Shown here: positions 1-53,642 of the stretch, piece by piece
Numbering within the stretch: position 1 is the stretch's first letter
Layout: every line of letters begins with the position of its first letter
Assembly (NCBI GenBank): GCA_020081605.1
Contig: JAHREC010000045.1
Location: forward strand, 1,364,001 to 1,428,000
DNA length: 64,000 nt
Direction: 5' to 3'
From: Albifimbria verrucaria
Taxonomy: Eukaryota; Ascomycota; Sordariomycetes; Hypocreales; Stachybotryaceae
The notes under the pieces: generated by a model
The model's input: the letters and a program-made list of their open reading frames with translations, nothing else
Databases searched by the model: none
What the model was told of the DNA's origin: nothing
Program-made: the position numbers and the translations under genes

Positions 1-2194
1 CGGCCTATGTCCAACACGAGTCTCAAAGCACTTGGGGTGCTGGCATTGACTCGACTGCTGTTCATGCTGAATACAGCGACTGGGTCAAGCTTGCTACCAA
101 GGTTGTCCCCGGAAACTGTGGTGGTGGCACTCCTTCAAGCACCTCGGCTATTCCCTCCTCTACTTCGTCTGTCCCCGTTGGCACCGGTATCCCGGTCCCA
201 ACTGGTACCTCCTACGACTATATCGTTGTTGGATCTGGTGCCGGAGGTATCCCTGTCGCTGACAAGCTCAGCGAGTCTGGCAAGCGTGTTCTGCTTATTG
301 AGAAGGGCCCTCCTTCTTCCGGACGCTGGGGTGGCAAGCTGAAGCCTAAGTGGCTCGACGGAACCAGCCTGACCCGTTTTGATGTCCCTGGTCTTTGCAA
401 CCAAATTTGGGTTGACTCTGATGGTGTTGCATGCGCTGACACTGACCAGATGGCCGGTTGCGTTTTGGGTGGTGGCACCGCTGTTAACGCTGGTCTCTGG
501 TGGAAGCCCAACCCCGTTGATTGGGACTACAACTTCCCTACAGGCTGGAAGTCTAGTGATATCAAGGCCGCGACGGACCGTGTCTTCTCCCGTATCGGCG
601 GTACTACGACCCCTCAACTGACGGAAAGCTCTATTACCAGCAGGGCTTCAACGTCCTGTCTAACGGACTTAAGGCGGCTGGCTGGACGTCTGTCAACGCA
701 AACAACTCCCCAGCCAGAAGAACCGAACGTACGGCAATGGTCCTTTCATGTTCTCTGGTGGTGAGCGAGGTGGCCCATTGGCCACCTACCTTGCTAGTGC
801 CGACAAGCGTAACAACTTTGACCTCTGGACGAACACCCAGGTCAAGCGCGTGATCCGAAACGGTGGCCATATCACCGGTGTGGAGGTAGAGAACTATGCT
901 GGTGACGGATACCTTGGCACCGTGAACGTGACCCCGTCACTGGCCGTGTCATTTTGTCTGCCGGTACCTTCGGAAGTGCCAAGATCCTTCTGCGAAGTAA
1001 GCTGACCATTTCTCTTTTCCGAAGTGTGCGACTAACATCCCACAGGCGGTATCGGCCCTAAGGATCAGCTGGAAATTGTCAAGAACTCGGCTGACGGCAA
1101 GACCATGGTTGACACCAAGCAGTGGATTGACCTCCTGTTGGCTACAACCTCGAGGACCACACCAACGTGAGTTGTGTGATATGCTTCAAATTCACTATGG
1201 CATGCTGACCTAATTGTAGACTGACCTTGTCATCTCACACCCTGACGTGGTTCACTATGACTTCTACAAGGCCTGGACCGACCCTATCGAGGCTGATAAG
1301 ACTGCTTACCTCAGTATGATGATCCGGACTCCCAGGAGGGTGACTTTGCTAATCGTTTCTCAGGCAAGCGAACTGGCATCCTCGCCCAAGCCGCACCTAA
1401 CATCGGACCTCTGTTCTTCGACGAGGTCCGCGGCACTGACAACATCGTCCGCTCATTCCAGTACACCGCCCGTGTTGAAGGTGGCCACGATATCCCTGAT
1501 GGCAGTATGTATTCCCTCTTGGTAAATTATAAGAAAATTTCTGACCACCTTTGTAGAGGCTATGGTCATCAGCCAATACCTTGGCCGTGGTGCTGTTTCC
1601 AGAGGCCGAATGACCATTACTCCCAGCCTCACCACTGCTGTCAGCACGGTCCCCTACCTCATAGAAAAGGCCGACAGGGAGGCTGTCATCAAGTCCCTTG
1701 AGAACATCCAGAACGCATTGAAGAATGTCAAGGATCTCAAGTGGGAGTACCCCCTGCCGGCACAACGATGCGCCAGCACGTCGAGAACGTAAGTAGTTCT
1801 TTCACTGTTTAAATACTCAGGAAGCTAACCTTGCCAGATGATCATTACCACTGGCAACCGCCGCTCCAACCACTGGATCGGTACCAACAAGATCGGCACA
1901 AAGGATGGCCGTATCGGTGGTGACTCTGTTGTTGATCTTAACACCAAGGTGTATGGTACCGACAACCTGTTCGTCGTTGACGCCTCCATCTTCCCCGGCA
2001 TGGTTACCACCAACCCCTCAGCCTACATTGTCGTCGCCGCTGAGCATGCCAGTCAGAAGATTCTGAACTTGGCTCCTGTCAAGGCTGTCGCCAAGTACGG
2101 GCAGTGCGGTGGTAAGGAATACTCTGGCAGCTTCGTATGTGCCTCAGGCTCTACCTGCCAGTACCAAAACGACTATTACTCGCAGTGTCTATAA
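1..2194 (+). CDS. Cellobiose dehydrogenase, C-terminal part with CBM1 (5' end outside window)
   Basis: Secreted flavocytochrome that oxidises cellobiose and passes electrons to AA9 monooxygenases. Reading starts in frame at base 3 with the end of the haem domain, then a Ser/Thr/Pro linker (about 120-210), an FAD-binding GSGAGG motif near 232-249, the GMC oxidoreductase body, the catalytic-type SNHW motif (His codon 1871-1873), a C-terminal NPSAY motif near 2012, and a fungal cellulose-binding CBM1 (2096-2191) before the stop. Five introns fit the protein: 997-1045, 1167-1219, 1314-1363, 1505-1556 and 1789-1837, all GT-AG and 49-53 bases long. The frame breaks near 616, 716, 933, 1132 and 1759; each is repaired by one extra base in a C or G run, so the gene is probably intact in the organism. 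Family identity is secure; the start lies outside the window. Confidence 0.93.
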
Positions 2195-2409
2195 AAGACG
2201 CACATAGATTGTGTCAGATCCGATTCTAGTATATATATTTGAATGCTACTGTCTATACGGGTTCAATTTACTTGCATATTTCTTATCCTCATACAACTTG
2301 CATGCATGCTATTTTCTGCAAACCGTGCCATGCATCATCTATGACCACTTTACCAACGGAGATGTGTCATTATCATCACTCATCATTTCATATCTATCCC
2401 AAATGTTAT
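2195..2409. other. Convergent 3' intergenic region
   Basis: A short AT-rich gap between two genes that converge, the dehydrogenase on the plus strand and the isomerase on the minus strand. It should hold both 3' UTRs. No further gene is visible. Confidence 0.6.
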
Positions 2410-3670
2410 TTATTCGACATAAGCAATATGCATAAGAAGGCCGTCATCCTTCGCACTGACGTCAAGATTGACTCCTGGGAGACAAAGTAAACATGGCCCT
2501 CCTTCAGTTCAAAAGACTTGCCACCTGCGTTCACTGTAGCGCTACCCTTCGTACCTAGCACGATGGATGCGCCAACCTTGCCAAGGCTCTCCGATTCTCC
2601 TGCTCCTAGACGTGTTTCGAGCACGTTGAACTCGCTTAGTGGCGGCTGGTAGACCTGGGTTTTACCCTCCTTGCTACGCTCGTACGGCTTTGGCTTCAGC
2701 ATGCACTGCTCCGGGCTGTGTGGTGCAAAAGTCAGAACCGCGCAGAAGTCCGCAGCGCTGTTGCGCTCAGCCTTGGGACAGAAGCCAGTGTTGAGGACAT
2801 TATCGGAACGTGCCATGCACTCGATAATGTCGCCTGAGATGTAGGCGTGCACACCATCGGCGGGGATATAAATGGACTGGCCGGGCTGCAGGACCAGGTA
2901 GTTCATGGTCAACAGGGCTGCAACAACGCCGGGGTCGGCGGAATCGTACTGCTCGGCAAGACGAGGAGCCAGTTTGGGGATGTGCTCGTTGATGCCAGTA
3001 AATGTCGAAGAAGGGAGTGAAGTGAGATCCTTGTAGGCTTGCTGGAGAACCTCGGGGATGCTTCAAGGATGGTTTGCATTGTGCGGCGAAGATCATCGTC
3101 GGTGAGCTTGTCATTGCCGCGCTTATCAGACGGAACAAAGTGTTTGAACTGATCGAGCTTGAGAAGTGACATAATGTCGTCCACAGGCTTAAAGCCACAG
3201 AAGGCTTCAAACTCAGTCAACGCCAGAGCAATCTCGGGCTTGTGGTTGGGATCGGTAAAAGCATCGGGGTCCTCCTTGTGGCGCTTGCTAGAAAAGTCCT
3301 TGTTCGGGTGGAGCTGAAGAGGCAACGCCTTGGAGATGGACAAGACCTTTGGGAGGAAGGGAAGCTTGGAGTGGCCGAACTTCTTAACGACGTCGGCGCC
3401 TAGCAGAGAATCCGCGTGGCGGTCGAGAACGTCCTGGAGATCCTCGCCAGTGCTAGCAACGTAGGACGGCAGCACGGGGTATGTGCCCATCCACATCTCA
3501 GCGTACGGCTTGCTTTCATCAATCTGAAAGTCAGTGTCCTTAGAATCGCCGCCCCAGCCGGGCGTTTTGGCACAAAGCTGCGCAGCCAACGACTTGGAGC
3601 CCTGCTTGCCCCAAGGGTAGGAGTTGCAGCTGCATCGGAGCTGGTAGAATGGTTCTAAAGGAGTGGACAT
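2410..3670 (-). CDS. PMI40: Mannose-6-phosphate isomerase (type I)
   Basis: Cytosolic zinc enzyme interconverting mannose 6-phosphate and fructose 6-phosphate, feeding GDP-mannose for glycosylation and cell wall. The start at 3670 gives MSTPLEPFYQL, then the N-terminal SYPWGK motif, the zinc-site residues in LQLHPNK and the following KPEIALAL segment, and the C-terminal metal-site motif IPADGVHAY. No intron is seen. The frame breaks near 3058 and near 2482; in each case one extra C in a C run restores the family sequence, including a C-terminus ending HIAYVE at 2410 rather than the unrelated tail read without the correction. Inferred length is 420 residues, normal for the family. Its break pattern is evidence that the breaks are errors, since yeast PMI40 mutants need added mannose. 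Confidence 0.92.
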
Positions 3671-4343
3671 TTTGTCGAGCTCAAAGGGTATCTGTAGAAT
3701 GAAATTGGTAGCGATGATGGTCAACAGAATTAATGTCAAGAGATTTGCTGCATTGAGAGTATATATAATTGGCAATAACGAATTGTGATCGTCATGGAAG
3801 CCGAGCTCTTTCGTTGACGTCAGTCTGGGTCGTGTGTGCTGTCATGGTCTTGTAAGCAAAGCCCACAATGACAGATAGCTCGAGATACTCTACCCGACGC
3901 GCAAAAGCTGCCCTTGGTTCCGCTCACAAAATCACGGAATCCTCGGGCCACGTAAATCGCCGATCACTCAGTGCCATGAAAGTGACCGGGAGCGGAACGG
4001 CCATATCGACCCACTTTTCCCGGGCAGCCTCCGTATCGACTTGAATGTGATCATCCGAACCGTATTGGCACATAATTTAATTCACACGATACATGCACAT
4101 AAAAATGACCAGAATATTTGTTTCGATGAAGTATTTTCATCATTGATATCAATTTACAATTCCTCCAAAATATCTACATGCATGAAAGATGAACCCCCGA
4201 AAGTGGATAGTCAAGGTGCTAACCAGCATTCGCTAATGTCGGACAGGAGGACTCCTCGTTGGTGTCTCAAGGGTTCAGGTTGACTCGTTTTGCGTCATAT
4301 AGTTTGTAGCTGGGAGAAACTCCAGAGAGTCCACGCCCAAGCC
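3671..4343. other. Promoter region of the isomerase
   Basis: 673 bases between the isomerase start and the xylanase stop, both on the minus strand. It should hold the isomerase promoter and the xylanase 3' UTR. No coding signal is convincing. Confidence 0.5.
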
Positions 4344-7039
<2,696 letters not shown>

Positions 7040-9261
7040 CTATGTCTGCTCCACCATCCCTTCGTTATCGCTCTCTTCCTGTTTGTCCAGGTTCTTGAAA
7101 AACAGCCAAAATAACACAGCCGCAACGGCGGTAAGCCCTCCGATGACACTGTACATGATGACCAGGCTCGGGTCCTTGGTGATGGGAGAGAGAGCGATGC
7201 CCACGATTGCCGCCAGCCCCGCCGTTACCTGCGTCATGGCCTGCACCAGGCTCTTCATGCTCTTGGGCGCCATTTCGTAGGCGATTTCTGAAATTGTGGC
7301 GAACCCGAGGATTTCTCCGATGGCGAGGATGAACCAGACGGGCATCTGCACCCAGACTGCAATATCATTGCCAATGATTCTATCCGTCGAGACCTGTGCC
7401 TCCGCACACACCAACGGTCGGTCGAAACATGGCCCACGCGAGTAAATCAGGTGCTGAATTCCGGCGGCGTATGCCATCGCCACGCTCATAATGAAGCAGG
7501 CCATGGAGATACGCGCAATCGGACGAAAGGAGATGCCTCGTTTTCGCAGCCACCCAAACAAGCCCCGCTGAATGACCGGGCCGAGGATGATGCAGGCTAC
7601 TGGGTTGAACACCTGCATTGTGTCGTTGGGCATCCCGTCGAGCCGCATCTGGCCTGCTTGGGATATCAGGTTGTTCATGATCTGCAGGTAGGCTAGATAG
7701 AAGGGGCAAGAGAAGAGCCTGTTCTTAGTCAGATCACTGCTTGTGCACCGCCAGTTGCTGGACTAAGACGTGGCCCCAGGAAGAAGACTCACAGTACACG
7801 GCTAATGATCAGGGCACGTCTGACGTCCTTGACAATGGTGTCGTCCCAAGCCACCTCTCGGCCGAAATGCTCCCTCTGGTACGACGGAGACGCATGACGA
7901 AGGCTGAATCCATTCCTCGCAGCACACCAAAGAGCCTTCAATGCGAGCGGCAGTATGCTTCCTTGAACTTCAAGCGTCGCTATGATATGGTGAGCAGTTG
8001 TCATGTCAAGCGCTGGTAGTAACTCTTACTGAAACGATTCCTCCAAAGAAAGATGCAGATCTGGGTGATCAGCAGACAAATGAATGACATTAAGTTCGAC
8101 GCCCAGAAATCGACCTTCTTCTCAATAAATGTCGAAGCGAGAGACGACAGCGATGCGACATTGACCAACCTGCAAACTGTCAATGCTGTGATCGTGCAGA
8201 CGGCATATGAGTACAGCTCCATTCCTGCTCCTCATTCCTTCTCGCTGTCTCGGCCGATGCCCACACAGGCCGAGCTCGTTTGAAAGGAGAACAACTCACC
8301 AAAAGAACATATTCGTGATGAACTGGATGGTAAGCGTTCTGTCAGACACAACGACCTTATCACCTTTGGTCTTCAACGTCCTTGGCTCTGTGCGACGATA
8401 TTGATCGACTGGAGTAGATCAGTATAGAACCTCCGGCGCATATGATGATTCCTTACCTAGGAAAGGTGGCAATGTCGCCTTGACGCCAGCCACGCCGATG
8501 CCAATAAAGACCAAGGCTGCAATCAAACCTGGGAGACCGGCTCCATGATCGAGGGCGACAGGAAGCGACGTTACAAACAAGATGATACTCCCGACTTGGT
8601 ATATTCTAGAAGCGCACCGATCAGTCACCTTGTTCTGGGATAGTCGTCCAGTATCTACCCACACCAGACTCAACATGAGGGTATTAAGCCTCCCTAGTCG
8701 CATGTCGGCCAGAAGTGCGAATGGCATTGGCGCCACAAACTGTACAAGCAAGAAGCCATTGGTGATGTTGGTGGCCGTCTGCTGGCCTAGGTTCAAAGCA
8801 CCGGGGTTGGCGAAACCGCTACGTGGATTCTGGATATAGTTTTCTGATAGTCTGATTAGTTTATCACATTCAAACTATTGAACCAGGCTGTCCTTGCTAG
8901 AACAGATCCCCTTGGAGAAGAAGTAGGTTAAGCACTCACGCAATGGCGCTGACAGAGCATAATACGCGAAGCGCTCAGCCGCGCCAGCTACAGCCACTAT
9001 CCAAACACCGCTCGGCAGCTTGTCCACAGCCGCGACTTTGCGCTGAGCATTTGCCGTGCCTTCTTCTAGCGACTTGACAGTGCCTTCGGGTACCTGCTTT
9101 TCAGGCATATCCAAGTTGCCCTGCGCCGGGATTACAGTATGTTGCACCTCGGAAGCGCCATCGCCCACGCTTCTGCCACAACAAGTCAGCATTTCTGCAT
9201 TCAAAGCTGGCCAGATTGCACCCTACTCCCGGGGCGATTGCTGCTTCTCGCTTGTATCCAT
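7040..9261 (-). CDS. POT/PTR2-family proton-linked peptide transporter, eight exons
   Basis: Plasma-membrane carrier of the major facilitator superfamily; relatives import di- and tripeptides, some other families nitrate or modified compounds. Exons are 9261-9227, 9172-8940, 8843-8663, 8605-8457, 8408-8300, 8169-8030, 7979-7793 and 7718-7040, and they join without any frame break into 570 residues, normal for fungal PTR2. Family marks are ERFAYY in helix 1, QNYIQNP after it, DQYRRTEPR in the loop before the long cytosolic segment, and the helix-rich C-terminal half with WFILAIGEILGFAT. The usual ExxER motif of helix 1 reads GAAER, so the first Glu is replaced by Gly. Downstream neighbour of the ATP-grasp ligase on the same strand, which hints at a shared substrate or product. 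The substrate is unknown. Confidence 0.92.
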
Positions 9262-10414
9262 TGTCACTGTGCCTTGCGTGGAGACGCAGCCAGCCCTCGC
9301 ACAGGTGTCGCTTTTAAGATGACGGTGCAGGACCCCGGAATGATGTCTTAGAACAATATTTCACGCTTGCAAAGTGGTAAAGCACCCACTCGGGCAAGAT
9401 TGAAGAAAGAGGTAAAGATGAGGAAAATTCAACTCAAGCGAGTGACTATTACGTGCCATAATCGGCATCAACGAAGTATGCAAAGAGCTGCAGTCTCCGG
9501 ATGCAATGCAACAGTGCTTGGCAAACCAAGCCGTGGCAGGGACGACAGCCACGCAGCCAGTCAGAGCGGCATGCATCGTCTCCACGCACACGATGAACGG
9601 TTCAACGTCGCTGGGGTCTCGGTTACTTGCGTGATCCATGCGTCTGTTGTCTGTGAGAAGGCGCAGATCCCCTCTCGAAAATGTCCGAGCTCGCAATCGA
9701 AGAACGACATCCATGTCACAGATTGCGGTGTGCAAGGAGTTCAGGGTTACCCGCTTACTCTAGTCTCCGGTGTCTAGGTAATGTCAGGACCACAAGAGGC
9801 CATGAAATGCAGTGACAGTGTGTGCTAAACACTCGTCAGTTCGTGCTCTAGTCTGTGGGGTCTGCTGCTAGTTCTATTGCCTGTCCTGTCTGTGGGTTCG
9901 CTCTGAGGTGGTTTGAGCACATATTCATGTATCCAGCAAAGTTCCGGTCGCCACACTCAAGCCCAAGACGAGCTAGGCGATTGGCTTGGTCAACAGGGCC
10001 TTTCATTGACTGACACCCTGGCCCTCCATCAAGGTGCCCTAACACTGTCTCGGCCGATGAGTCGGCTTTACCTAACAGTCTCGATTATTCATGTCAGAAA
10101 CGGTAGGTCATTAAGCTTAAAGACTAGCTAGTTCCGTTACTTAGTGCAAATCATTTACAGGCTGGGGCCTAACACTAAGTCAACCTCTGAGGTTTGTCGT
10201 GCTGCTGTTCCAAACGGCAATGCGCACACCAGTCACCATCTACGTGTCTGCTACGGCGATGATCGCCAATTCTCGCCCCAGACATAGATGTTTTGATTCT
10301 GAGTTTATGATTCATAGAAAACTGAAATGATTTAACGTTATCTATTTAAATGCCTTGTCCTTCTGTCGTTGCCCATCCTGCGGAGTTTTGCGCCCAGCCT
10401 CTCATGGCTCTTAT
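9262..10414. other. Gene-free region: POT transporter promoter
   Basis: 1.15 kb between the transporter start and the ATP-grasp stop, both minus strand. It should hold the transporter promoter and the ligase 3' UTR. Short open frames on both strands overlap each other and carry no recognisable feature. Confidence 0.5.
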
Positions 10415-12497
10415 TTATTCGCCTACTAGTCTATAAGAAAACTTGTCTCTAACAGCTTGAATTCTCTCCAGGCATTCTTTGCGGCTGGTCCTTGAGAATA
10501 CTGACGCATATCCGATGTACCACAGTTGGGTATCGTCTGGTCCGTACACTTGCGAACCACCTTTTCGCATGGTCTGGTACTCAGCAATCCACTCACGCAT
10601 GTACGGGTTCTTTTCCAGCATCTCAGCAATCGCATCCTCCGTTTCCATGATGCCACCTCGCGTTGGTGGAAAGACGGTGAGACCCAGCGTCCATTGCGAA
10701 CCATGGGCAAAGGGCACTGAAAGCGCACGTATACGCTCTTGTGCATCGCCAAGAGCGAACAACAACCGGATCGCATAATAATCGACCCCATGAGTAAGCA
10801 AAGCACAGATTGTGCTAGAGTATCCCGGCGTTCGCGCATTAATCTCATGAAGGTAGCACGATGCTTTGCTGCTTGGCGCTTGATCTGGAACATACAGGTC
10901 CATCAGACCGTTGTCTGACCGAGTTCGGTATTGCGTGCGAGAGTCACGCACACGCGCTTCACAGTGAAACACGCCTGAAGAGAAACCTTGACGCAGAATG
11001 CTCTCTTTCAAAGAGTCTCTAAGGACCAGCTGTTCATCCTCAGGAAGACCCGACGGCAGTAACATAATAGTTTCCATGAAGTTTGGAGCTGCCGCCTCTG
11101 CAGCATTCTGCGCGATCTCCGGGGTGTCGCCAGTACATGGAAAGTCATCCAATACCTGATAGTAAAGGATCTCACCGTCCAGGATGACAAAGTTGGCGTC
11201 CACCTCTGGCCCGCTGATGTACGGCTCTATGACTGTCTTGGTGACCTTGGTTGGCGCGTTCGCGTGTCTTTCTGAAGCCCGATGGACTGCATGACGCAGC
11301 TCGGCAAGGTTTCTTACCTTCGTCACGCAATCGCTGTTCCATCCAAGGCAAGGCTTGACAATGAGGGATACGGTATGTCGCCCTCATGCTTGGATACAAG
11401 GTCATCGAGCTCCTCCACGCTAGAAACCACTGCAACAAAGTCTCCTTGTGCCTTTGGTTCCTTTAAGCGAGATGCGCCCTTATCCCCAGCGACCACGTAG
11501 GAGTCCGAAGGGAAGTTGGCAATCCGAGCATCTCGCAGGTCTTGGCTATACTAGCCAAACGAACATCGCTAATGGTCACCACCCCATGAACCGGACGAGG
11601 ATATGCTTTGACCACGTCGTAGATGCGTTGCGACAGATCCGCGTCAACATCAATGCTGCAGGGAATGAAGGCTTCGCGGAGGTAGGCATATGGTCCGCTG
11701 TCATCTTCCAACCAATGGCCCGCGTGATCGACAATGACCAAGGTGATTCCGAGCGCCCACGCAGCTTCGTATGCACGGTGGATTGATTCGAAGTCTTCAC
11801 GACCTTGAACCCAGACGACACGGCGACGTTCGATAGGCTGTTTGGTCAACCAAGGGAAGGACAGGCGTTTCAGCAACTCATCGTCCAGCGCGCCAAGAAG
11901 CTCTACTTGGCTATCAGAGTCTGACGGCAGGGATAGAATGCCGCCGACAGTTTTAGGTAGCAGATCCAGAAAGTTCGTTTCGGAGACGTGCACCTCGGTC
12001 ACGCCAGCGACACGAGCTAGCGGTGTGAGAAACGACTTGGCACGCTGAGCAAGCTGACAGCCTTCAAATCGACGCTCGAGGAAATCACACCGTATTATGT
12101 AGCCTTCTTCGCGGGAGAAGACCAGTGTGATGAGTACTGACGACGGAGATGCGTCAGTACCTTGACTCAACAAGTCGAATGCATCTCGGAAAAGAGCCCA
12201 TTGGGGCACAGTCTCGCTCTCGCCGACTTCAATAGTCGACCCCAATGAGCCGTTCGTTTCCGACCAATCGTGGATCAAAGACAGGACAAGGTAAACCGCA
12301 TAGTGCCTGTCCGTATGAGTTGACCTCGCATAGCCCTTGACCTGCGTGCCAGAATGGACGACCTGCAGCAAACCTATTCACGATTTGTATCAGTCATGGA
12401 CGCCTTTCGATCTCACCGCAAGCCCGATAAACGTACCGAATCTCTTGCCTAGCCGAAGCAGGATCTTTGCCGCATCTGCAGCCTTCTCGACAGCCAT
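10415..12497 (-). CDS. Long ATP-grasp ligase (carnosine-synthase-like architecture)
   Basis: ATP-grasp enzymes join a carboxylate to an amine or thiol through an acyl phosphate. The first exon (12497-12437) encodes MAVEKAADAAKILLRLGKRF, followed by an intron at 12374-12436 and one long exon to 10415. The first 350 or so residues are a pre-ATP-grasp region; then come the ATP-binding LIVKPCLGWNSD segment, EPYISGPEVDANF, and the metal-binding HEINARTPG motif. The frame breaks near 11500 and 11355, each repaired by one C in a C run, giving an inferred 673 residues. It is divergent to the PLP enzyme at 13422 and upstream of the POT transporter on the same strand. Substrates are not predictable; an amino-acid or dipeptide ligase is the natural first guess. 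The family call is solid, the reaction is not. Confidence 0.82.
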
Positions 12498-13421
12498 GTT
12501 TCACGGATCTCGGAACAAGCCGGGGTGTGTAGCCTATGCCTCGGGAGAAGTGCCAGTGGCTGTTGCACGCTGGACCGGTAAATTGGAGAGGAGGGTGGGA
12601 TGAGCAGCTTTGAGTGAATAGTGTGGTATGTATCCCTGGTAAGCTTGCTAATTAGAGGCGAGAGGAACGTGGGAGAAGTGTCCCTTTTTTGTTCGCGAAC
12701 TACCTCCATGAGCTTGTCTAAGACAGTGGCACATGCAATGCTACCTTAATCCACACAATATGTGCTAACTAGGATATGGAGCCGCATTGGGAGCCACACA
12801 TGTTTACGAGCCGAAACTGACGCATACTTGCGCACCGCCAGACCATTGCGGCTTGCGCTATGGCTTGGCCTGCAGTGGCCTGGGTGTCGATCCATTTACC
12901 CAGCGAACCCAACAATGAACGAATGAATGCCTGGACAGCTGCATTCAATGACAACTTATTACTTTAATGGATGGCACTGTGTTCTTGGCAATGCAACGCT
13001 GCAGCGTCGCTTGGGCCGGATACTACCCATCTAGTGATAGCCGATGCAAAGACAGTGAATCGGGCGCATAGACCTTGCTTCTTCTCGCTCCATCACGCGA
13101 ACACTAGGGTCACTGATTCACAGAGACTAGGGAGTCTTGCTCTCCGCACCCATGACTTGCCACAGTAAGCCGCGGAGGAACAAGTGTATGGCAATGTGTG
13201 TTGACGTACCTTCTGCAATGAAGGACCATACTATCCATACGTGTCGGAGCAGAGTGCAACGTGGTAGGTATATATCTGTATATATGTCTCAGCTCAGCAG
13301 CCTTGGTTCGGTCTGGTATTTAGCACCATTGCCTTCTTCTGTCATTTAGTAGCACCACGAGTACCCTTTGCAGAATCCTACCTCGCTTCTTTATTCAGAC
13401 TCGTAGATCGTGCTGCAAGCC
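12498..13421. promoter_or_regulatory. Shared divergent promoter of ATP-grasp ligase and PLP-rhodanese gene
   Basis: 924 bases separate the two opposite start codons and contain no credible gene. The plus-strand side has two TATATAT runs (13269-13275 and 13279-13285), 137-153 bases before the PLP gene ATG. A divergent pair of this kind is often co-regulated, which supports a common pathway; binding sites for a specific regulator could not be identified by eye. Confidence 0.5.
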
Positions 13422-15464
13422 ATGGCAGCCAACAACGTTTTCAAGGGTCCCGACTCGGTGGCTCAATATTTTGACCCTGACAGCAATCCTCCTCTGCCGT
13501 TGGTCGAAATCCCAAATCGCCTCAACCCGTATCGTCGAGATGGCGTCCGCATATACGCTAAGATGCTGACTGCCCTGCCCGCTCAGAACGTTAAATCCCT
13601 ACCCGGTGTGTGCTTGCTTATCTCGAGTTCTACCTGGCTGCGTGTCTTCCTTATCTAACGCCCATTCGCAGCTCTTAACATGTTGCAAGATAAGGCACCG
13701 CATGTTGCTACACAAGCCATCGTTGAGGCTAGCTCGGGTTCGACCGTGCTATCTTTAGGGATCATCTCGAATGTATTGTGGGGAAATGACAACGTTACAG
13801 CCTATGTAACGAATAAGAAGCACAAGGATTCGTTGAAGTTGTTGAGATTCTTTGGGTTGCAAATGTAAGCCAAGACCTCGTGGCACCTGGATCGACACAA
13901 CCCTCAGACACTTGGCTCATCGTACATAATGCACAGATCCCTGTACGGAGGACTCGCGCAGCAAGAACCTACCGATCCGCGGGGAATTATGAACCGTTTA
14001 CGACAATTGGCTAAAAGTGATGAAAATATATGCTACCCGGGCCAATATGACAACGCAAATGTAAGAGCAACTTGGCCACAGTCACAACACCTCACTAATC
14101 AGAACGGGCAGAACTGGAAAGCACATGAGCGCTGGACAGGGCCGCAGATTCTGAGACAACTGCCTGAGATCAACATCTTCTGCACAACAGTAGGCACAGG
14201 AGGCAAGATATCTCTACTTCATCTATGCATCCTCTTGATCCTAATATTCTCCTCTAGGGTGCATCACGGGAACAGGGGCGTATCTCAAGTTAGAAAAGCC
14301 TTCTGTGAAGGTTCTGGGGTATGTCTACTTCACTTCAGATCTGACCTCACTACTAACAACTCCAAAGTGTCTTCAACGTTTTTGGTGATCCCACTCCTGG
14401 TCCCCGTCATCTTCACGGCTTCAAGTCATGCGGATTTCCGTGGAAAAGTACAGTCGACACTTACACAGAGGTCAAATCTGAGGATTCCTATCGCATGTCC
14501 ATGCGACTCTCACGAGAGGGCCTCATCGCAGGACCTTCATCAGGCGAAGCGCTGCAAGGTCTTCTTGACTACATTGAGGAGTCAAGGCCGCAGGAAAGCT
14601 CTCAGAACTTGCTGACCCTGTAACGGGCGAAGTTTCTTGTGTCTTCACCTGCAGTGATCTTCCTTACCAGTACTTAGACAGTTACTTCACCAAGCTCGGG
14701 GAAAATGAGTTTCCACCAATCCACAATGAGGTAATACATGCATTCTTCAATAATTGGTTGACTTAGCTGACATTTGTGTCAGATACTCCTCTCGTGCGAC
14801 CAAGACAAGCATGACGAACGATGGATCTTAGATCCAAGGCAAGCAGTTGGAATGATATCCGAGGAAAACCAGGCTTCAACGTCTGAATGCGATATAGAGA
14901 GCAAAACCAAGCGGCCTAATCTCTGGTGCTCCCGACATGATGTCAGCGCTAAGAAAGGTGGTTTCGTTTCCAGAGCGAAATCACTCTTCAACTGCACATC
15001 GCCAACTCACCAAAAGCATCCCGTGTGTCAAAAAGCCAACAGGGAAGACGTGTTGGGTCAGGACCCTGGTTATCGACCTCAGGGATCTCACAGCCTTCAA
15101 AACAGCGCATGTCTTAGGAGCGCACTGCGTTCCACTACAGGGTCTCAGTCCTGACACTGCCAATGGAGATCTGTTTGGCGACGCTGAAGCTGTGCACTGG
15201 GCCTGGACGAAGCTGAAGGAGTTGCTCGGCCAACAACAAATAACAAACCTTCTTAAGGCAACACAAGCGACAAAGCGCGAAGTACTTGTGATCTGCTACG
15301 ACGGTGATGCCTCCCGGTTGGCCACCTCAATGCTGCGAAGTCGTGGTATCGAAGCATCAAGTGTTGAGGGTGGCTGGAAAGGATTGAAAGAAGTGCTCAG
15401 CCCAGCAACAAATGACAGCAAAAGTCAGTCGGTCATGGTCTCGACAAACCTGGTCAACGCATAG
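13422..15464 (+). CDS. PLP-dependent cysteine-synthase-fold enzyme fused to a rhodanese domain
   Basis: Fold-II PLP enzymes replace a leaving group on the beta carbon of serine-type substrates. Exons begin at 13422, 13672, 13937, 14103, 14258, 14368 and 14783; introns are 13606-13671, 13865-13936, 14061-14102, 14203-14257 (GC-AG), 14319-14367 and 14731-14782. The PLP lysine is expected in NVKSLPA, which is split by intron 1; SSGSTVLSLG matches the substrate-binding loop and TVGTGG with CITGTG the phosphate loop. The C-terminal 150 residues form a rhodanese domain: LVIDLRD, AHVLGAHCVPL, the active-site loop CYDGDASR and VEGGWKGLKE. Frame breaks near 14583, 14975 and 15057 are each repaired by one base. 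Likely roles are making a sulfur-containing or diamino acid; the fused rhodanese suggests persulfide handling. Role is inferred. Confidence 0.85.
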
Positions 15465-16226
15465 CGTCAGCTGAAAGGGACTATTTAATATTTGATTTCC
15501 TAGTTGGTGTATGGAAAAAGCAAAAGCGAGCATATTACAATGACACAAGAATACTACTACGGAGGGTGGCCCTGTCTGGACGCAGCCTAATGTGTTGGTG
15601 GATGACCTTGGCAATGTGAATCTTCAGTCAGCGAGCAAGTCAAATTTGAATGATTTGTGACGATTATAAAGCAACGTGCCTTCCAAACATCATAATGCCA
15701 ATTTATCGACAGCCAAGATTGCCTTTCAAAGCTCTCCGCATGGTTCCCACGCGGAGTCCACGTCCGGCCTTCTCCTTAAGAGGCACCACGGAAGACACCA
15801 ACACGACACGATTCTTGGTCCTCTGGATGATTGGCTGACTCTGGGTTCCACAACGGGATCAGGTGGGGTAGCGTCCTCCGTGATTTTGAGAGCGTTTTGA
15901 GAGAGAATGAGCAAGATTCTGATGACTAGCAGGGGAGCTAACGGGAGCTAATCAACATCCTGGTATTAGGCCAGGGTCTAGATCAGACTCAGGCCATCAA
16001 GTGCAGTTTCTAAGTGACCGCCAAGGGCAGCCGAAGGTTGCCATCCGTGTGCTGGGATATGCACGTCTAATCACGTAGCTTGTAAATATAAGCGGTTCCC
16101 TAGACCTCATGTAACCCTCTCGGGTTTGTTTTCCTCGCTTATGCCGAGTGTCTTTGGTAAACCGCAAGTGGTTAGGCAAGCGCAGTTCAAGACTTCACAG
16201 TCAGGACGTGCGATATCTTGTTCACC
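15465..16226. other. Gene-free region: promoter of the ferric reductase-like gene
   Basis: 762 bases between two plus-strand genes, holding the PLP gene 3' UTR and the next gene's promoter. Short open frames here have no recognisable content. Confidence 0.5.
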
Positions 16227-18594
16227 ATGGCGCCCAAGTTCCTCACGTTTGGCGCCGTCCTTGGCGGTGCTGGCCTTGCCCTCGCAGACGGCATTGGCTT
16301 GATCGGCTTCGGCAAGGTTATGTATAAGCCAGCATGCGCTTTCTCTTGCCGTAGCGTCATCGCGAGCTGCCCTTTGGCTTGCACACCAAAAGATAGCGAT
16401 GAAGTGTTTGGGTCAGGGCACTCAACATCCTCGACGCCACCGGACTGTTACCTCAGCGATCCCTCCTTTTTGCGAACCTTGGCCCTCTGCATCGACACAT
16501 ACTGCCCCGACAGCGATGGACCGGCCATCAGCGAGATCGAAAAATACTGGGAGGGACATCTGGCAACTGGATCTGTCGGGGACTGGTCCATGAAGCCTAA
16601 CATGTCATACTCGGAAGCTCTTATGGGTGCGAAGGCTGACCAAGGAGAGGATGGAGAAGCCACTCATGACGATCATTCTCATGATGAAGCATCTGGCGAT
16701 CACCACGAAGGTCATTCCTCCAACAGTACTGCTGCGAAAGCGAGAGTCCGTCGACACGGCCATGAAGACCACGAGGACGATGGCGTGGTAGAATTCCACG
16801 GCTCACTACCCATCGCTGTATCCGGACGAGCACTGAACCAAACAAGTTGGATTTCCAAGGATGATTGGCAAGTGCGATACAATGGAAACACGAATTTCGA
16901 ATACAACGAGATCGGCCACTCGAAATATACGTGAGTACTCGATCCTTCTCTATTAGACCAAGTATGTTAACAACGCGGTAGCATCGCCATTACAGCCGTC
17001 GCCCTGGCCATTCCCATCATCTTTTCTCTCCTTCGATTTATTCCCTTCCTCCACACCAGCCAAACCTGGGTCTGGGTCAACTCGATGCTGAACCACCCGC
17101 CTGTTTGGGGCAGCAGGCACCGTGAGCCTGTGGCTATGAAACTTGGTGGTGGCCTGGTCCCTACTCGCGGCCAAGCCATGTACATCGCGCTTCTTAGCAT
17201 TCTGAACCTGGTATTCCTCATTGGGCCATACCAGAGCATCTTCCCTCAGAGCTCTTTCACCAGCTTGAAGGCGCAAGAACTCAGTGTCATCGGCTGCCGT
17301 GCTGGCAATCTGGCCATGGGTAACATGGTCGCCATCTTTGTCTTCTCGTCGCGAAACAACGTCCTTCTCTGGATCACGGATTGAGTCACAGTACTTACTT
17401 GCTACTGCACCGCTGGCTCGGATATTGGGTGATACTCCACACCATTCTACATTCAGTCCTGCTTCTAGCCTACTATGTCCAGTATGGCGATTATGAGGCC
17501 GAGTTAGTGAAGGATTACTGGATCTGGGGATGCGTGGCCACTGTAGCGGTGTCACTCATGCTCCCTTTCTCTGTCCTTACTGTCCGAAGACGGTTCTACG
17601 AGTTCTTTTGGCAAGTCACCAACTTCTAGCCCTAATCTTCCTCATCGGATATTACTACCACATCTGGTACTGCTTTACATACAACTGGGGCTACGAGATT
17701 TGGATGTTCATCGGTGCCGGCATCTGGGCCTTGGAGCGTCTCATTCGCGTTGTGCGTGTTGTGATGCATGGACCTCGAACTGCGACTGTCTCTTTCGTTG
17801 AAGGCTCTAATAATGAGTACATGCGTATCACCATCGAAGGGGTTTCCACTGAGGGTGTCGTGTATCTGAACTTCCCTACTTTATCCTGGAAATTCTGGGA
17901 AACACATCCCTTTTCCGTGGCTAGTTCTTTCATTTATTCAGAGGATCGCTCGGATGAAAGCACCGGCTACGACTCTCCCAAGAAGCTGGATGGCGATGCT
18001 ATTGAGAAGGCCGTTGGCACCACAGTGGCTCCAACCGTCTCCTCCAATTCACACCTCAGCACTGGGGTCAAAACACGGCCTGGAGCAACGTTTGTTGTCC
18101 GAACACGATCGGGAATTACTCGTAACATGGCGAACAAGCTGGCATCAGTTACAGGTCCTATCCGCATACCTGTATTCCTGGAAGGCTCATATCACTCTGC
18201 ACCCCTTGATAAACTCGCCCATTGCACCACTGTTGTCTGTATCGCCGGTGGTGTTGGTATCACCGCTGTTCTCCCATTGCTACAGTCTAACGGCCCCCGC
18301 ACCGCTCGTTTGTTCTGGGGCATGCGCGATGCTTCTCTGGCTCGAGAGATGTCTGATCTCATGGTCAGACTACCTCCTAGTGTTCACACGATTACAGCCA
18401 CAGGTGAACGGTTAGATATTGACGGAATACTGAGAGAGGAGCTTCTTCGCCGAAGAGATGAGACGGGGCCGCTAGCAATCGTTGTGTCTGGACCTTCAGG
18501 TATGGCTGACCAAGTGCGCATGACTGCAACCGCCTTAGGGCGCTCGGGACAGGCTAGGGAGTTTGTGCTCGTTGATGAGGGATTCAGCTGGTAA
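16227..18594 (+). CDS. Ferric reductase-like transmembrane flavocytochrome (FRE/NOX family)
   Basis: Membrane enzyme moving electrons from NAD(P)H through FAD and two haems to metal ions outside the cell. The ATG at 16227 lies in a good context (CACCATGG). Exon 1 (16227-16930) encodes a signal peptide and a Cys-containing ectodomain ending in a His/Asp/Glu-rich tract at about 16665-16790. After the intron 16931-16981 come the transmembrane haem domain with paired His in LLLHRWLGYWVILHTILH and in the next helix pair, the flavin motif HPFSVASS and NAD-binding segments CIAGGVGIT and SGPSGMADQ. Breaks at 17382 and near 17605 are each repaired by one base in a G or T run. Inferred length is 772 residues. 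Adjacent, same strand, to the PLP-rhodanese gene. Confidence 0.88.
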
Positions 18595-29311: not shown

Positions 29312-30756
29312 TCATTCATTAGCAAATATCTCTGGTTGGTAGCCAATTCCAGGAGACGTTCCACACAGAGTCCCAGCTAGTATTACCCTAACTCCGGTAC
29401 TATTCTTGTTTCGACTTGTCAATGCCCCAATTCCATCCACTCCGCCAGGTCCAAAGTCCAGAATGTGTGTTGCGTTAGGAAAATTCGTCGCCGTTGGCCA
29501 ATCCAGCGTATCCCGCGTGATAAGACGAGATAATTCGGGAACTATATTTCCACTAATCTCCCGTAAATCAGCCCCTGTTTTCGTGCTGTATACAGGAATC
29601 TTGAGTTCATTCGCATGAATTTCCAGGTCTTTGAGATCATAGTCGATCCAAGTTAAAGCTGCGTCCAGATATTTGTTATGGAATGGAACCGAGACTGACA
29701 GTTGTTCGCTGCTTTGCCTAGCCGCATCCTGACAATCTTCACTAGGTGAAGCATTGGCTTTCCACAAATATTGATTGAGGTCGTAGACAGCGAAAGGATG
29801 GCCTGTAATGACGAAATCTTGTGGCCCATTTGTAGCCGAAATCTCAACACAGCTACCAGGCCCACGAGCTGCATTGACTTCAAGAACTCGAGCTTCAATT
29901 TGTTCTTTGTTGAAGCCTCTAACACGGAGCATAGGAGTCGGAAGACTTGACCTATCATGACCAGTCTGTTCGCAGATGTTCGCAGAGACGCTGGGGCATA
30001 TTTGTTGACATCGTAGACCAACGACGAAGAGTATTGTTAAAATCGTTTTGACGGTCTCCTCCAAGAATCCCAGTCACCTACTGTAGCAATTGCAGCCGCA
30101 ACGACGACGCCTTGCGAATATCCTGTGACGCCCACAAACCTGTCGCGCAGGTCTCCAGGCTGAAATCCTAGGATTTTGCATGTGATTTCAACAGTTGAGA
30201 GTTGAACAAGCCCTATCAAAGGAAGGCTGACTGGTGCCATGAGCAGGTAGGCTTTACTCGGGGTATAGCTTGGCAACCTAAGCCATTTCATCAAGTCGAA
30301 TCCTTCTGCAAAAAGATGCTCTACGCCGTATCCTTGTATGAGTTTAAGGAGAAGTTTCTGTGAAGCATGGAATAGGTCGGTTATAAAAGATTGATACGTG
30401 GCGAATAGGTCAAGGAGTTCCGAAAAGTATGAATTAACTATGCCTTGGCCACCAAAAATGGCATATACGTTTCTTTTCATGGCATTGCTAGGCTGATCTC
30501 TGAACAGAACCGAATCCTGTGGAGGTGGCGCTCTTCCAATGGCTTGTAGTGCGGCGTAGTAAGAACGAATGATGTCAAGTTTATCCTTTATTGAGATGCT
30601 GAAGTCTCGAATGGCGTAATGGATACTGTCATTGTCCAGATATAATGGATAAAGATCAACATTGTATTCGACCAGCTGGAGAACTCTGGCTTGATCTTTA
30701 GCTTGCTTAGCTTTCTGAACAGCATAGTCAAGATCTTGAGCCCATTTTACAACCAA
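29312..30756 (-). pseudogene. Acetyltransferase-domain fragment of a fatty-acid synthase beta subunit
   Basis: Resembles the N-terminal acetyltransferase (AT) domain of fungal FAS beta (Fas1), including the beta subunits of dedicated synthases in secondary metabolism. Marks are YAIFGGQGIVNSYFSEL, the nucleophile motif GYSQGVVVAA (family GHSQG), the active-site region PTPMLRVRG, and THILDFGPGGVDGIGALTSR. One break near 30065 is repaired by one T. The protein then stops at 29312 after about 480 residues, whereas a complete beta subunit has about 2,000 with enoyl reductase, dehydratase and malonyl/palmitoyl transferase domains after the AT. The start is unclear; no in-frame ATG is near 30756. 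Either a relic or a free-standing AT; the catalytic Ser is present but its usual His was changed to Tyr. Confidence 0.75.
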
Positions 30757-31419
30757 CTGGGGAACCGGAGCTTTTCGACCTTTATTTTTAGTTCCATAAG
30801 CATGAGAAACGTGCTATATGACTGCATTGCAAAGTTCCGTAACTCAGGAGGTAGGTCCTGGGGTGGCCCTTGGACTCGTCTCTTCGTAGAAAGTTGTGAA
30901 GTTGGCATTTGGAATGATGATTAGTGGGCAACAAATCTGTCAAAAACTGTGAGGGGGAATGATATTCGGATAATTTTCAGTGAATGCAGTTATCTGAGTA
31001 AAAATTTCTTCGAATGCTTTTCGTTTCTTCCATGCCTTTGAAATAGTCCCAAGAAAAGCCTAGGTAGGGTTGGATTGGAGTAAGGCAACTTTTCGTAGGA
31101 TGTGCTGACTATCCTTGGTCACGAGAGATTGACCAACCATCAGGGTACTGCATATATACATATTTTAATGCATCTACCGGATCCAGCTACAGGCAATACG
31201 ATGGTCAGAGACGGAGACCAGTCAACTACATGTTCACAGCTATTCTTATTACTACAGCCATTGCAATACAGTATTCTACTCAATTACCAAAAGACATCTA
31301 GAACCTCCACTTTATTGCCGTGGTGACTTGGCAAGACATGTTATTCAGATTGTTTGGCCGCATTTTATCAAGAGGAAAACCGTGATTGCTCTATGAATCA
31401 TAGGAAGGGGTAGCTATGT
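30757..31419. other. Intergenic region upstream of the AT fragment
   Basis: 663 bases. Near 30760-30905 the minus strand, read one frame away from the AT fragment, stays open and could be a further part of its N-terminus behind another run-length error (for example near 30760), but no family match was recognised. The rest shows nothing. Confidence 0.35.
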
Positions 31420-45207: not shown

Positions 45208-48200
45208 TCAAAGCGCAACGCAAACATTCAGAATAGGAGAACAGATTCCTATGAGACACGACCTGCCTGAACCACAAGACTGTCCAAGACTAGCCCCTGT
45301 CGAACCTGTCGAGCCGGTCGAACCAGTCGAACCAGTTGAACCAGTTGAACCAGTTGAACCAGTTGAACCAGTTGAACCAGTTGAACCAGTTGAACCAGTT
45401 GAACCAGTTGAACCAGTTGAACCAGTTGAACCAGTTGAACCAGGGGATCCAGTCGAGCCAGTCTGGCCGATACAAATACCAGCAACACCACAAATTTCAA
45501 GACCTACAATCGTACAGTCTGCGTTCGTTCGGCATCCACCATTTCCAGTCGAAGGAGTAGAGCTACCCCCGCCAGTCGAAGGAACAGAACTACCGCCTCC
45601 AGTTGATGGACCAGCATTGCTACCTCCAGTCAATGAGCCAGAAATGCACACACCGGCAACACCGCAGATTTCTAGGCCGGCAATGGTACAGTCTGCATTA
45701 GACTGGCATCCGCCACTTCCAGTTGATGGACCAGACGTACCGCCGCCAGTGGAAGGCACAGAGCTACCGCCCCAGTTGATGAGCCTGAAATGCATACTCC
45801 AGCGATACCGCAGATTTCTAAGCCGAGGATAGTGCAGTCTGCATTTGTCTGGCATCCCCGCCTCCAGTGACTGGCTCAGAGGATCCTCCAGTAGTTGGAG
45901 AACCGGAAATGCATACACCGGCGACACCACATATCTCAAGTCCGATAATTGTGCAATCAGCATTTGATTGGCATTGTCCTTCTGTTCCAGTTGAAGGGCC
46001 AGATGTGCCACCGCTACTTGGAGAACCAGAAATACATATGCCAGCAACGCCGCATATCTCGAATCCTAAAATCGTACAGTCCGCATTGGATTGGCACCTG
46101 CCACTTCCGGTGGATGGATCAGACGAGCTTCCATCAGTCGGCGAACCGGAAATGCATATACCAGCAACACCACATATTTCAAGGCCCACGATGGTGCAAT
46201 CAGTATTAGACTGACATCCACCACCACCCGAAGAGCCTCCAGTAGTCGGGGAACCAGATATGCATACACCAGCAACGCCACAAATCTCAAGTCCTGCAAT
46301 GGTACAGTCTGCATTGGACTGGCACCCACCTCCGGTGGATGGGTCAGAAGAGCCTCCAGTGGTTGGAGAACCAGAGACACATATACCAGCGACACCACAA
46401 ATCTCGAGTCCAGCAATTGTGCAATCAGCATTTGACTGGCATCCTCCTGTTCCAGTCGAAGGGCCGGTTGTGCTATCACCACCAGCTAAGGAGCCAGAAA
46501 CACATACGCCGGCAATACCGCATATCTCAAGGCCTAAAATAGTGCAATCGGCATTGGATTGGCACCCCTGTTCCAGATGAGGATCCGGCGATACATATGC
46601 CGCCAGGGCCACAGATCTCAAGGCCAGCGGCGGTACAGTCTGTGTTGGATTGACATTCTTCAGTTCCTGTTGGTGGCCCGGAAATACAAATGCCGGCGAT
46701 ACCACATATTTCAAGCCCAGCGATGGTGCAGTCCGCATTCGATTGGCATTCGGTATTGCCGCCTCCTGTCGAGGGTCCAGCAATGCATATGCCAGCAAGA
46801 CCACACACTTCAAGCCCAGCAATATTGCAGTCTGCGTTTGACTGGCATGTACCATCGCCGCCCCCTGTCGAAGGCCCAGCAATACATATACCAGCTACTC
46901 CACAGATCTCGAGTCCCGCCACAGTACAGTCTGCATTCGTCAGGCAACCACCACCTCCGGTTGATGGTCCAGCAATGCATATGCCAGCAACGCCGCAAAC
47001 CTCAAGTCCGGCGACAGTGCAGTCTGCGTTCGACTGGCATTCAGTGTCGTCACCTCCTGTCGAGGGCCCAGCAATGCATATCCCAGCTACACCACAAATC
47101 TCAAGTCCGACAATGGTACAGTCTGCATTTGACTGGCAGTTGGTGGCCTCACCTCCTGTTGCTGGTCCTCCAACACAAACACCAGCGATGTTGCAGATTT
47201 CCAGACCAAGTATCGTACAATCTGCATTTGACTGACATCCTCCGTTGCCTTCCCCAGTTGTAGGTTCACCAACACATACACCGGCTATATTGCAAATCTC
47301 TAGGCCTGCAATGGTGCAATCTGCATTTGATTGGCAAGCGCCTGTCGAAGACCCGCCGACACATACACCAAGGATGCTGCATATTTCAAGACCGAGGATG
47401 GTACAGTCTGCGTTCGATTGGCATATCTCGGTGCCAGTTGATGGCCCAGTGCCGCAAATGCCTGTAGCAGTATTGCAGACTTCCAAACCAGGGGTTGTAC
47501 AATCCGTATTGGACTGGCAACCGCCAGTTCCCGGGATGGTCCAGCAACACATACTCCGGTTGCTATATCGCAGATCTCGAGACCAGCAACAGTGCAGTCA
47601 ACGTTGGACGCGCACACACCATCTCCTGTGGAAGGGCCAGAAATACAGATTCCAGTGGCTACGTTGCACACGTTAAGACCAGCGACGGTGCAATCTGCAT
47701 TTGATGAGCATCCATTACCTCCTGTCGGAAGCTCAGCAACGCATACACCTGTTGCAACATTACAGATGCTAAGACCAGCAACGGTACAGTCGGCATTTGA
47801 TGAGCATCCTCCATTGCCTCCTGTGGAAGGTCCAGCAATACAGATGCCTAAAGTGACATCACAGACTCCTAGACCAGCAACAGTACAGTCTGAATTTGAT
47901 AGACATCCATCATCCCCTGTAGAAGGGCCACTGATACATACTCCAGTAGCGACGTTGCAAACCCCAAGGCCAGCAATGGTACAGTCAGTGTCAGATAGAC
48001 AACCATCAGCACCTCCTCCCGGTCCCGCAACACAGATGCTCAGACTTGGGTCGCAGATTTGGCCTGAAATCAGACAGTCGTTATTCGTGGAACAGCTTGT
48101 ACCTCCTGTGGAAGAGGGGACGCAGGCATTGTTGACACAGACGTTCGCACCTAAACAAGGAGGGTTGCAAGTGTTGGAAGACCCATCGGTTGGTGTGCAA

Positions 48201-52527: not shown

Positions 52528-53642
52528 TTAAGCTCGGACGGGAGCAACGCGGACAGGGGCAACGCGCAGAGGAGCGACGTTGCGGGCCTTGACGTCACGA
52601 GCGTGGCGGCGGACCTTCTTGGAGCGCTTGCTCTTCTTGCAAGGGGTGGGAGCAGGGTTGGAGGGCTGCTCGGGCTCGGAGGCGGTAGGCTGAGGAGCGG
52701 CAGCCTGGGTGGAGCTGGAGGGAGCGGCGCTGGAGGAGGCGGCGCTGCCAGCGGAGGTGGGAGCAGGAGCCTGGGTAGGCTCAGGGGCGGCGGAAGAAGC
52801 AGGAGCCTTGGTGGGAGAGGGAGCGCTGCCAGAGCCGCTGCCAGTGGTGGGAGTGCCGGTGGAGGTGGCCTTGACGACGCTCTGGGCGGCGGCGGAGGCA
52901 CCCTCGATCAGGGCAGGGCCGGGGATGGGGTAGGTGTCAAGAGGAGTGTAGATGTTGAACAGGATGCCCTTGTCGTCAGCCTTGTACAGCTCAGTGCCCT
53001 TGACACCGGTGGGCTTCTCCGTGCCGGAGCCAGTGATCTCGAGGTTGAAGCACTGGGGGTAGGACTGGGCACCGTTCTCCTGGCCAGCGGAGTGGAGAGC
53101 GATGATCTCGTGACGGAGAACGTAGGAGCCGGGGGCAATGTTCTCGGGGATCTTGACCAGCCAGCCGTTGCCGTTCTTCAGGAGCTCGTCATCGGCGTAG
53201 GTACCGGGGCTGGCCTTGCCGTCGATGAGACCCTTCTCAGAGATCTTGAAGAACTCGAGGTCGGTCTTGTCGACCTTCTCGCAGCCATCAGCGCCGCAAG
53301 AAGCAAGGTAGTCCAGGATGGGACCCTTGTGGGACTCGGGCCAGGTGTCCCACTGGATGAAGATGGAGGCACCAGCGGCGACCTGGGCGTGGCCGCCAGC
53401 GTTCTTGGCGTCACGGTGGCAGATGATGTCGGGGAGCCGAAAGCATCGGGGGCAACGAAGCCGTTGTCAGTGGCGGTGGTGGACCAGCCGACAACAGTGG
53501 GAGGGTTGGCCATGTAGGCCATGGAGGTAACGTCGTAACCGGCGTACTCGACGCCATCAGCGATGATGTGGGTAGCGTGACCGTGGGCGGAAACGGCGAC
53601 GGCGCCGGCCAGGGCGGCAAGGGTAGCACGGGTGAAAGACAT
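52528..53642 (-). CDS. AA9 lytic polysaccharide monooxygenase with basic C-terminal tail
   Basis: Copper enzyme that oxidatively cleaves cellulose and related glucans; electrons can come from cellobiose dehydrogenase, encoded at the window's left end. Start 53642: signal peptide [19 protein letters not shown], then mature [14 protein letters not shown], so His1 would form the copper histidine brace. The second copper His is in [11 protein letters not shown] and the axial Tyr in [13 protein letters not shown]. After the catalytic domain (about residue 250) comes a Ser/Thr/Pro/Ala linker, then no CBM1 but a Lys/Arg-rich tail with repeated VAPVR units before the stop. One break near 53434 is repaired by one C; inferred 371 residues, no intron. 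Confidence 0.92.

Follow-up and report, generated by a model that had tools for sequence, protein, structure and literature searches.

Known systems and the four-gene group

Metal uptake by fungi has mostly been described in terms of siderophores made by non-ribosomal peptide synthetases (NRPS) and of reductive uptake. Here we examined a group of four genes in a 64,000-nucleotide stretch of the genome of Albifimbria verrucaria (contig JAHREC010000045.1, positions 1,364,001–1,428,000, forward strand; the whole stretch is called the window). The genes encode a POT (peptide-family) transporter, an ATP-grasp ligase, a pyridoxal phosphate (PLP) enzyme with a rhodanese domain, and a ferric reductase. 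The source assembly comprises 48.4 Mb in 41 contigs, and the window sequence is fungal. What is cited below from individual papers is drawn from extracts of them.

The PLP enzyme resembles Fda4 of the fusadapamide cluster of Fusarium poae. Fda4 joins O-phosphoserine to L-alanine, not to L-Asp or L-Glu, and in that pathway the proposed role of the flavin adenine dinucleotide (FAD) oxidoreductase Fda3 is the release of diaminopropionate (PMC12751119). The window enzyme has the same PLP and rhodanese architecture and is 58% identical to Fda4 over the piece searched. The fusadapamide module differs in working with an NRPS and Fda3, whereas the window has an ATP-grasp ligase instead. For the related aspergillomarasmine synthase, the amino acid coupled to O-phosphoserine is L-Asp, and the marasmins are called metal-chelating (PMC12751119). 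An O-phosphoserine-dependent PLP enzyme and a metal-chelating aminocarboxylate product are features that the window group may share with this system, which differs in being a two-gene cluster with a preference for Zn, Ni and Co (PMC12751119, PMC11091072). SbnA of staphyloferrin B biosynthesis also uses O-phosphoserine (PMC12751119); no SbnB-like gene was seen beside the window PLP gene.

For the ligase, the comparison is with Cp1B, an ATP-grasp enzyme encoded in a fungal cluster, that of the E-64 pathway, which forms an amide bond independently of an NRPS, as the window ligase probably does (PMC12568646). The E-64 cluster differs in its oxygenase and ANL amide synthetase, neither of which was seen among the four window genes. 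No match to a Cp1B chain was found among solved structures at E 0.01, the presence of the chain in the set searched being unconfirmed. A metalloreductase gene stands among candidate metallophore genes in a copper-responsive cluster of Pseudogymnoascus destructans, as in the window group, but there the partners are an opine dehydrogenase and an S-adenosylmethionine-dependent enzyme rather than PLP and ATP-grasp enzymes (PMC12113139). Reductase-type and copper-transporter genes also occur in a plant-induced cluster of Trichoderma (PMC12855858).

No description of an ATP-grasp, PLP-rhodanese and ferric reductase combination was found in openly licensed papers, although a subscription paper could hold one; a full-text search of openly licensed papers for ATP-grasp with ferric reductase and cysteine synthase also found none. 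The kinds of enzyme are known, and it is their combination and its conservation that look new.

A sequence-only reading of the window had assigned the four genes to these families, with the ligase and PLP genes diverging from a common region. Domain searches and gene models agree with it on both counts:

About 9108–7040, minus strand: POT transporter gene; PF00854, E 3e-23 on the last exon; exons read by eye
12497–10415, minus strand: ATP-grasp ligase gene (exon 1 12497–12437, exon 2 from 12373); PF18130 (E 2.3e-17) and PF13535 (E 2e-8), each on its own piece
12498–13421, no strand: divergent intergenic region of 924 bp between the ligase and PLP gene models
13422–15464, plus strand: gene for a PLP enzyme of cysteine-synthase fold with a C-terminal rhodanese domain; PF00291 (E 1.6e-33) and PF00581 (E 4.5e-8), each on its own piece
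16227–18594, plus strand: ferric reductase gene with a His-rich ectodomain; PF01794 (whole-genome search) and PF08022, both above cut-off

A weak PF00854 match was also present on an earlier exon of the POT gene, in which no frame break was seen by eye. The PLP gene has an intron at 14203–14257 (plus strand) of the GC-AG type, with a GC donor in place of GT. For the reductase, the nicotinamide adenine dinucleotide (NAD) domain PF08030 scored 16.6 bits against a cut-off of 22.2; the protein is predicted from its profile matches to carry the transmembrane and FAD domains.

Linkage of the ligase, PLP and reductase genes in other ascomycetes

Scoring in the protein searches was limited to the candidates with the most words in common, 7,993 for the ligase and 7,998 for the reductase. 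The comparison covered 56 ligase homologues, the best 120 of 1,043 PLP matches and the best 120 of 136 reductase matches, and all the counts below refer to the matches listed. Two genes were scored as sharing a contig where contigs of equal size appeared in both match lists, with organism names matched by eye and at times at the species level only.

On this measure, the ligase and PLP genes lie on one contig in 14 of the 17 strains or species present in both lists. Four ligase/PLP pairs have consecutive locus tags (S40293_07766/07767, DL765_002223/002222, FQN57_000253/000252 and AAE478_002261/002260). For the reductase and PLP genes, a common contig was found in 14 of the 18 species in both lists. 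Numbered tags for both genes were available in six listed species: the tag numbers differ by two in two pairs (VTI74DRAFT_2349/2351 and QQX98_006346/006348) and are far apart in the other four (Stachybotrys chartarum IBT 40288, Aphanocladium, Squamulea and Flavoplaca). For the 51 PLP matches on contigs shorter than 200 kb, a ligase was shared three times against 0.09 expected by chance and a reductase six times against 0.18, assuming 40-Mb genomes with one ligase and two listed reductases each. In Paramyrothecium foliicola the PLP and reductase genes are on one contig and the ligase is absent from the ligase match list; in Colletotrichum higginsianum one ligase and one reductase are on a common 6.0-Mb contig.

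The sequence-only reading had named genes unlinked in relatives as the outcome that would count against it. The check covered three genes, those for the ligase, PLP enzyme and reductase, and found them linked in most of the strains or species compared. We regard this linkage as established. The ligase and PLP genes are almost certainly a conserved functional pair, and the reductase very probably belongs to the same unit. The best reading is that the divergent ligase/PLP pair is the core of a cluster of which the ferric reductase is a frequent third member.

The PLP-rhodanese enzyme

The window PLP piece is 92% identical to P0001 of P. foliicola and 85% identical to the Stachybotrys elegans protein. 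The PALP plus C-terminal rhodanese architecture was found in the window pieces, in P0001 and in Fda4 (P0089). The columns invariant among 45 homologues include K57, S81–T85, G194, G197 and S270 of P0001, which we take to be PLP-site residues, and the same conserved motifs are present in the window piece. The solved chains 8h4q and 8h4h are close relatives. P0001 matched the SbnA model TIGR03945 with an E value of 6e-24 and 84.6 bits, far under the cut-off of 349.95. By analogy with Fda4, the enzyme probably performs O-phosphoserine-dependent C–N conjugation.

A tree was built from 107 of the 120 listed PLP matches (those of ≥430 amino acids) and two pieces from this genome; three of the 14 reductase-linked rows were not included. 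The window enzyme falls in a clade of 79 rows (Shimodaira–Hasegawa-like approximate likelihood ratio test, SH-aLRT, 100) that contains all 23 linked rows of the tree. Colletotrichum PLP-rhodanese genes fall into two lineages, one with P0005/P0007 and the other formed by the P0024 group, and some Colletotrichum species may have two such enzymes.

The ATP-grasp ligase

The best of the 56 ligase homologues, P0121, is 98% identical to the window ligase piece. ATPgrasp_N and ATP-grasp_4 domains are both listed in 54 of the 56. Residues K340, E390, D392, E472, E510, N512 and R514 of P0121 are invariant in 54 sequences, and we assume them to be ATP- and metal-site positions; the four motifs holding them were all found in the window piece. 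The only solved relative at E ≤0.01 was the L-amino acid ligase BL00235 (3vot, E 1.2e-7). It has ATPgrasp_N and ATP-grasp_4 domains, as does the window ligase, but matches only residues 251–482 of P0121, the fungal family having an extra N-terminal region. Because the ligase belongs to an L-amino acid ligase-like family and has the conserved residues, we infer that it is likely to form an amide or peptide bond.

In a bacterial search, 21 stretches fitted a pattern, one of which encodes a ligase relative (24% identity). This gene belongs to an operon of Cytobacillus that also encodes another ATP-grasp enzyme, an MFS transporter and a beta-eliminating lyase.

A second locus in the same genome

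Searches of the A. verrucaria genome found two PLP-rhodanese genes and three ligases of the family. The second PLP-rhodanese gene is on contig C41, where it again faces a ligase gene:

380.7–378.9 kb, minus strand: ligase gene, facing the PLP gene
381.8–382.9 kb, plus strand: PLP gene, with a rhodanese piece at 383.0–383.5 kb
387.4–389.6 kb: ferric reductase gene, downstream of the PLP-rhodanese gene
366.8–368.7 kb: POT gene, 10 kb from the ligase gene, with other genes in between

Besides the window genes, the genome holds 20 other Ferric_reduct matches and six other POT loci. A rough post hoc estimate over 48.4 Mb puts the chance of a reductase within 5 kb of the second pair at ∼0.4% and that of a POT gene within 12 kb at ∼0.3%. 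The C41 PLP copy (a 29%-filled piece in the tree) falls among the other 30 rows, as does Fda4. The two PLP copies are judged to be anciently diverged and not the result of a recent duplication, because a well-supported split of the tree (SH-aLRT 100) separates them. The C41 POT protein is 40% identical to that of the window, and a gene on contig C8 is closer at 45%. Elsewhere in the genome, the window reductase scores highest against a different gene of C41, located at 4.63 Mb (39% identity); against the reductase next to the second pair, identity is 41%, over a shorter alignment.

Membership of the POT gene in the cluster is possible, if somewhat doubtful, from its adjacency in the window and its loose recurrence at C41, both within this genome.

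Between the PLP-rhodanese and reductase genes of C41 lies a single-copy gene of 456 amino acids (383840–385207, minus strand) with a DGNHR motif. This motif recalls, we presume, the ParB/Srx-type serine kinases such as SbnI, and is a lead only; if the gene encoded such a kinase, a supply of O-phosphoserine would follow. It gave no Pfam or solved-structure match at E 1, and two weak NCBIfam matches far below cut-off. A motif search found no DGNHR-type gene in the window.

Among the reading frames listed near the third ligase gene (C10:2752185–2754153), none is a PLP gene. By eye, this ligase gene is flanked by a gene for a Gfo/Idh/MocA-like oxidoreductase on one side and by short-chain dehydrogenase and ABC transporter genes on the other; this is possibly another small cluster.

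The ferric reductase

The window reductase piece is 75% identical to P0177 of P. foliicola, which is itself contig-linked to the PLP homologue of that species. The His-rich ectodomain described in the sequence-only reading is real, with 10 histidines in 60 residues. As a mark of the gene group it was rejected: the first 250 residues hold five histidines in four cluster-linked Dothideomycete reductases compared to 12 in P0177, and the loop is lineage-specific, confined to near relatives. In a tree of 89 of the 120 listed reductase matches and the window piece, linked reductases are spread over two or more clades that also contain rows of unknown linkage. The tree therefore defines no cluster-specific reductase.

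The proposed product and the alternatives

Taking these results together, we propose a pathway in which the chemistry is read from related enzymes. The PLP enzyme would link the serine carbon of O-phosphoserine to an amino-acid nitrogen, as Fda4 and aspergillomarasmine synthase suggest, yielding a 2,3-diaminopropionate-type conjugate rich in carboxylates. This conjugate would probably be kept rather than degraded to free diaminopropionate, because no Fda3- or SbnB-like oxidoreductase was seen beside the PLP gene. Inspection of open reading frames, with no dedicated search, revealed no Fda3-like FAD oxidoreductase among the genes at 7–18.6 kb or the reading frames scanned on C41; the nearest FAD-type frame seen was GMC-like, at window 3–761. 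The ATP-grasp enzyme, judging by its family and residues, would then activate a carboxylate with ATP and form an amide bond to an amino acid. As a hypothesis, the exported product would bind a metal ion, and the surface reductase would reduce bound iron or copper, releasing it for uptake. The POT protein might conceivably carry the compound or a breakdown product.

We consider the chances evenly balanced that this is a conserved, NRPS-independent cluster building an aminocarboxylate-peptide chelator from which the reductase releases the metal, and the case for metal binding by the product stands equally in the balance. More tentatively, the group may represent an undescribed class of fungal metallophore, in which an O-phosphoserine-dependent PLP-rhodanese enzyme and an ATP-grasp enzyme make a mixed aminocarboxylate-peptide chelator and a dedicated reductase strips off the metal. 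If true, this would be a siderophore counterpart made without an NRPS, found in several ascomycete classes and twice in this genome, in two anciently diverged enzyme sets. The recurrent gene set suggests a little-known fungal route for collecting metals. A cluster coupling an NRPS-free builder of small molecules to a metal reductase would link siderophore and reductive uptake, and would add a fungal setting for diaminopropionate-type chemistry to those of the fusadapamides and marasmins. Cluster finders built on NRPS and polyketide synthase (PKS) genes may overlook such clusters. The named genes in sequenced species allow direct testing.

Several results weigh against this proposal. The ligase and PLP genes are on different contigs in C. 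higginsianum, Wilcoxina and Bisporella (3 of 17), the PLP genes of the last two being on the Fda4 side of the tree. The reductase and PLP contigs differ in the four species with distant tags, S. chartarum IBT 40288, Aphanocladium, Squamulea and Flavoplaca; the IBT 40288 reductase sits on a 10.5-kb contig. Several matches involve contigs of megabase size, on which sharing weighs little, and among the matches listed all three genes lie together on one contig only in Decorospora (19.4 kb) and S. elegans (2.7 Mb). Fda4 lies outside the PLP clade of the window enzyme (among the other 30 rows, SH-aLRT 100) and takes alanine, which suggests that the amine substrate of the window clade is not predictable from it. 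Aspergillomarasmine A, the nearest known type of chelator, prefers Zn, Ni and Co (PMC11091072). As a reductase would not help to release these metals, iron or copper would have to be the metal bound by the proposed product. A scan of five promoters for nine motif types with shuffled controls revealed no convincing enrichment for metal regulation. The copper-type motif TTTGCKC occurs twice in the C41 divergent promoter compared to 0.30 expected, and the PacC-type motif GCCARG four times upstream of the window reductase compared to 1.00. Both excesses were taken as chance because 45 comparisons were made. The motif scan found neither a copper-type nor an SreA-type site in the divergent promoter of the window.

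The pair might instead make a diaminopropionate-type dipeptide with another role, such as an antimetabolite, toxin or signal, with the reductase serving the same situation and leaving the product untouched. The pathway of Fda4 feeds a peptide without a reported metal role in the extract of PMC12751119, the POT gene adjoins the ligase gene, and 12 of the 14 linked ligase/PLP cases have no reductase from among the best 120 of 136 matches on the same contig. The recurrent linkage of the reductase and PLP genes, both in other species (14 of 18) and at the two loci of this genome, argues the other way, and we regard this explanation as rather unlikely.

Another alternative is a marasmin-type cluster, whose PLP enzyme would produce a compound resembling aspergillomarasmine or lycomarasmine, to be capped with an amide by the ligase. 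A related PLP enzyme does make marasmins from O-phosphoserine and Asp (PMC12751119), and these chelate metals (PMC12751119, PMC11091072). No labelled sequence of aspergillomarasmine synthase is among the 120 of 1,043 PLP matches listed, so the kinship of the window enzyme to that synthase is conjectural. To our knowledge, the marasmins as described need no peptide ligase. This alternative seems improbable.

A role in sulfur metabolism, with the PLP-rhodanese enzyme making cysteine or a persulfide and the ligase a thiol peptide, would suit the cysteine-synthase fold and the rhodanese domain, whose Cys column is almost invariant among homologues. Fda4, with the same two domains, forms a C–N bond instead, and the scores of P0001 fall well short of the cut-offs for the cysteine-synthase models of NCBIfam, making this very improbable.

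Frame changes in the cluster genes

Each of three cluster genes has two frame changes: near 11.51 and 11.37 kb in the ligase gene, near 14.58 and 14.90 kb in the PLP-rhodanese gene, and near 17.38 and 17.61 kb in the reductase gene. HSP70 genes of the same assembly, used as a control, have eight frame-changing junctions with <40 bases between pieces (22 rows, 11,478 matched bases); five of the eight overlap or abut, and the remaining three gaps are 19, 35 and 37 bases. The PALP genes have four such junctions among the 11 of 22 rows compared. Full-length homologues exist for each of the three genes (P0121, P0001 and P0177).

The frame changes look like assembly errors, because the HSP70 and PALP genes break similarly, the HSP70 genes at a comparable rate, and full-length homologues exist; the gene pieces were therefore searched separately. 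That the changes are real and the cluster is decaying, as the two breaks in each of three genes might suggest, was rejected as barely credible, conserved genes of the same assembly breaking alike, one full-length homologue being 98% identical and the conserved motifs being retained in the window pieces. The HSP70 breaks point to indel errors throughout the assembly, and its protein predictions need care.

Other features of the window

The absence of NRPS and PKS genes claimed in the sequence-only reading holds for the four-gene group; 11 kb past the reductase, there are SAT/FAS_N-like fragments in two overlapping frames (29315–30813, minus strand), perhaps belonging to a gene for a fatty acid synthase beta or for a PKS. 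A long cysteine-rich repeat array at 45211–49541 (minus strand), seen by eye in several frames, is repetitive and perhaps encodes a secreted protein. Ordinary neighbours at 2409–5441 and 52531–53912 (minus strand) are genes for a phosphomannose isomerase, a GH11 xylanase and an AA9 lytic polysaccharide monooxygenase, and a tRNA-Arg gene is located at 55482–55574.

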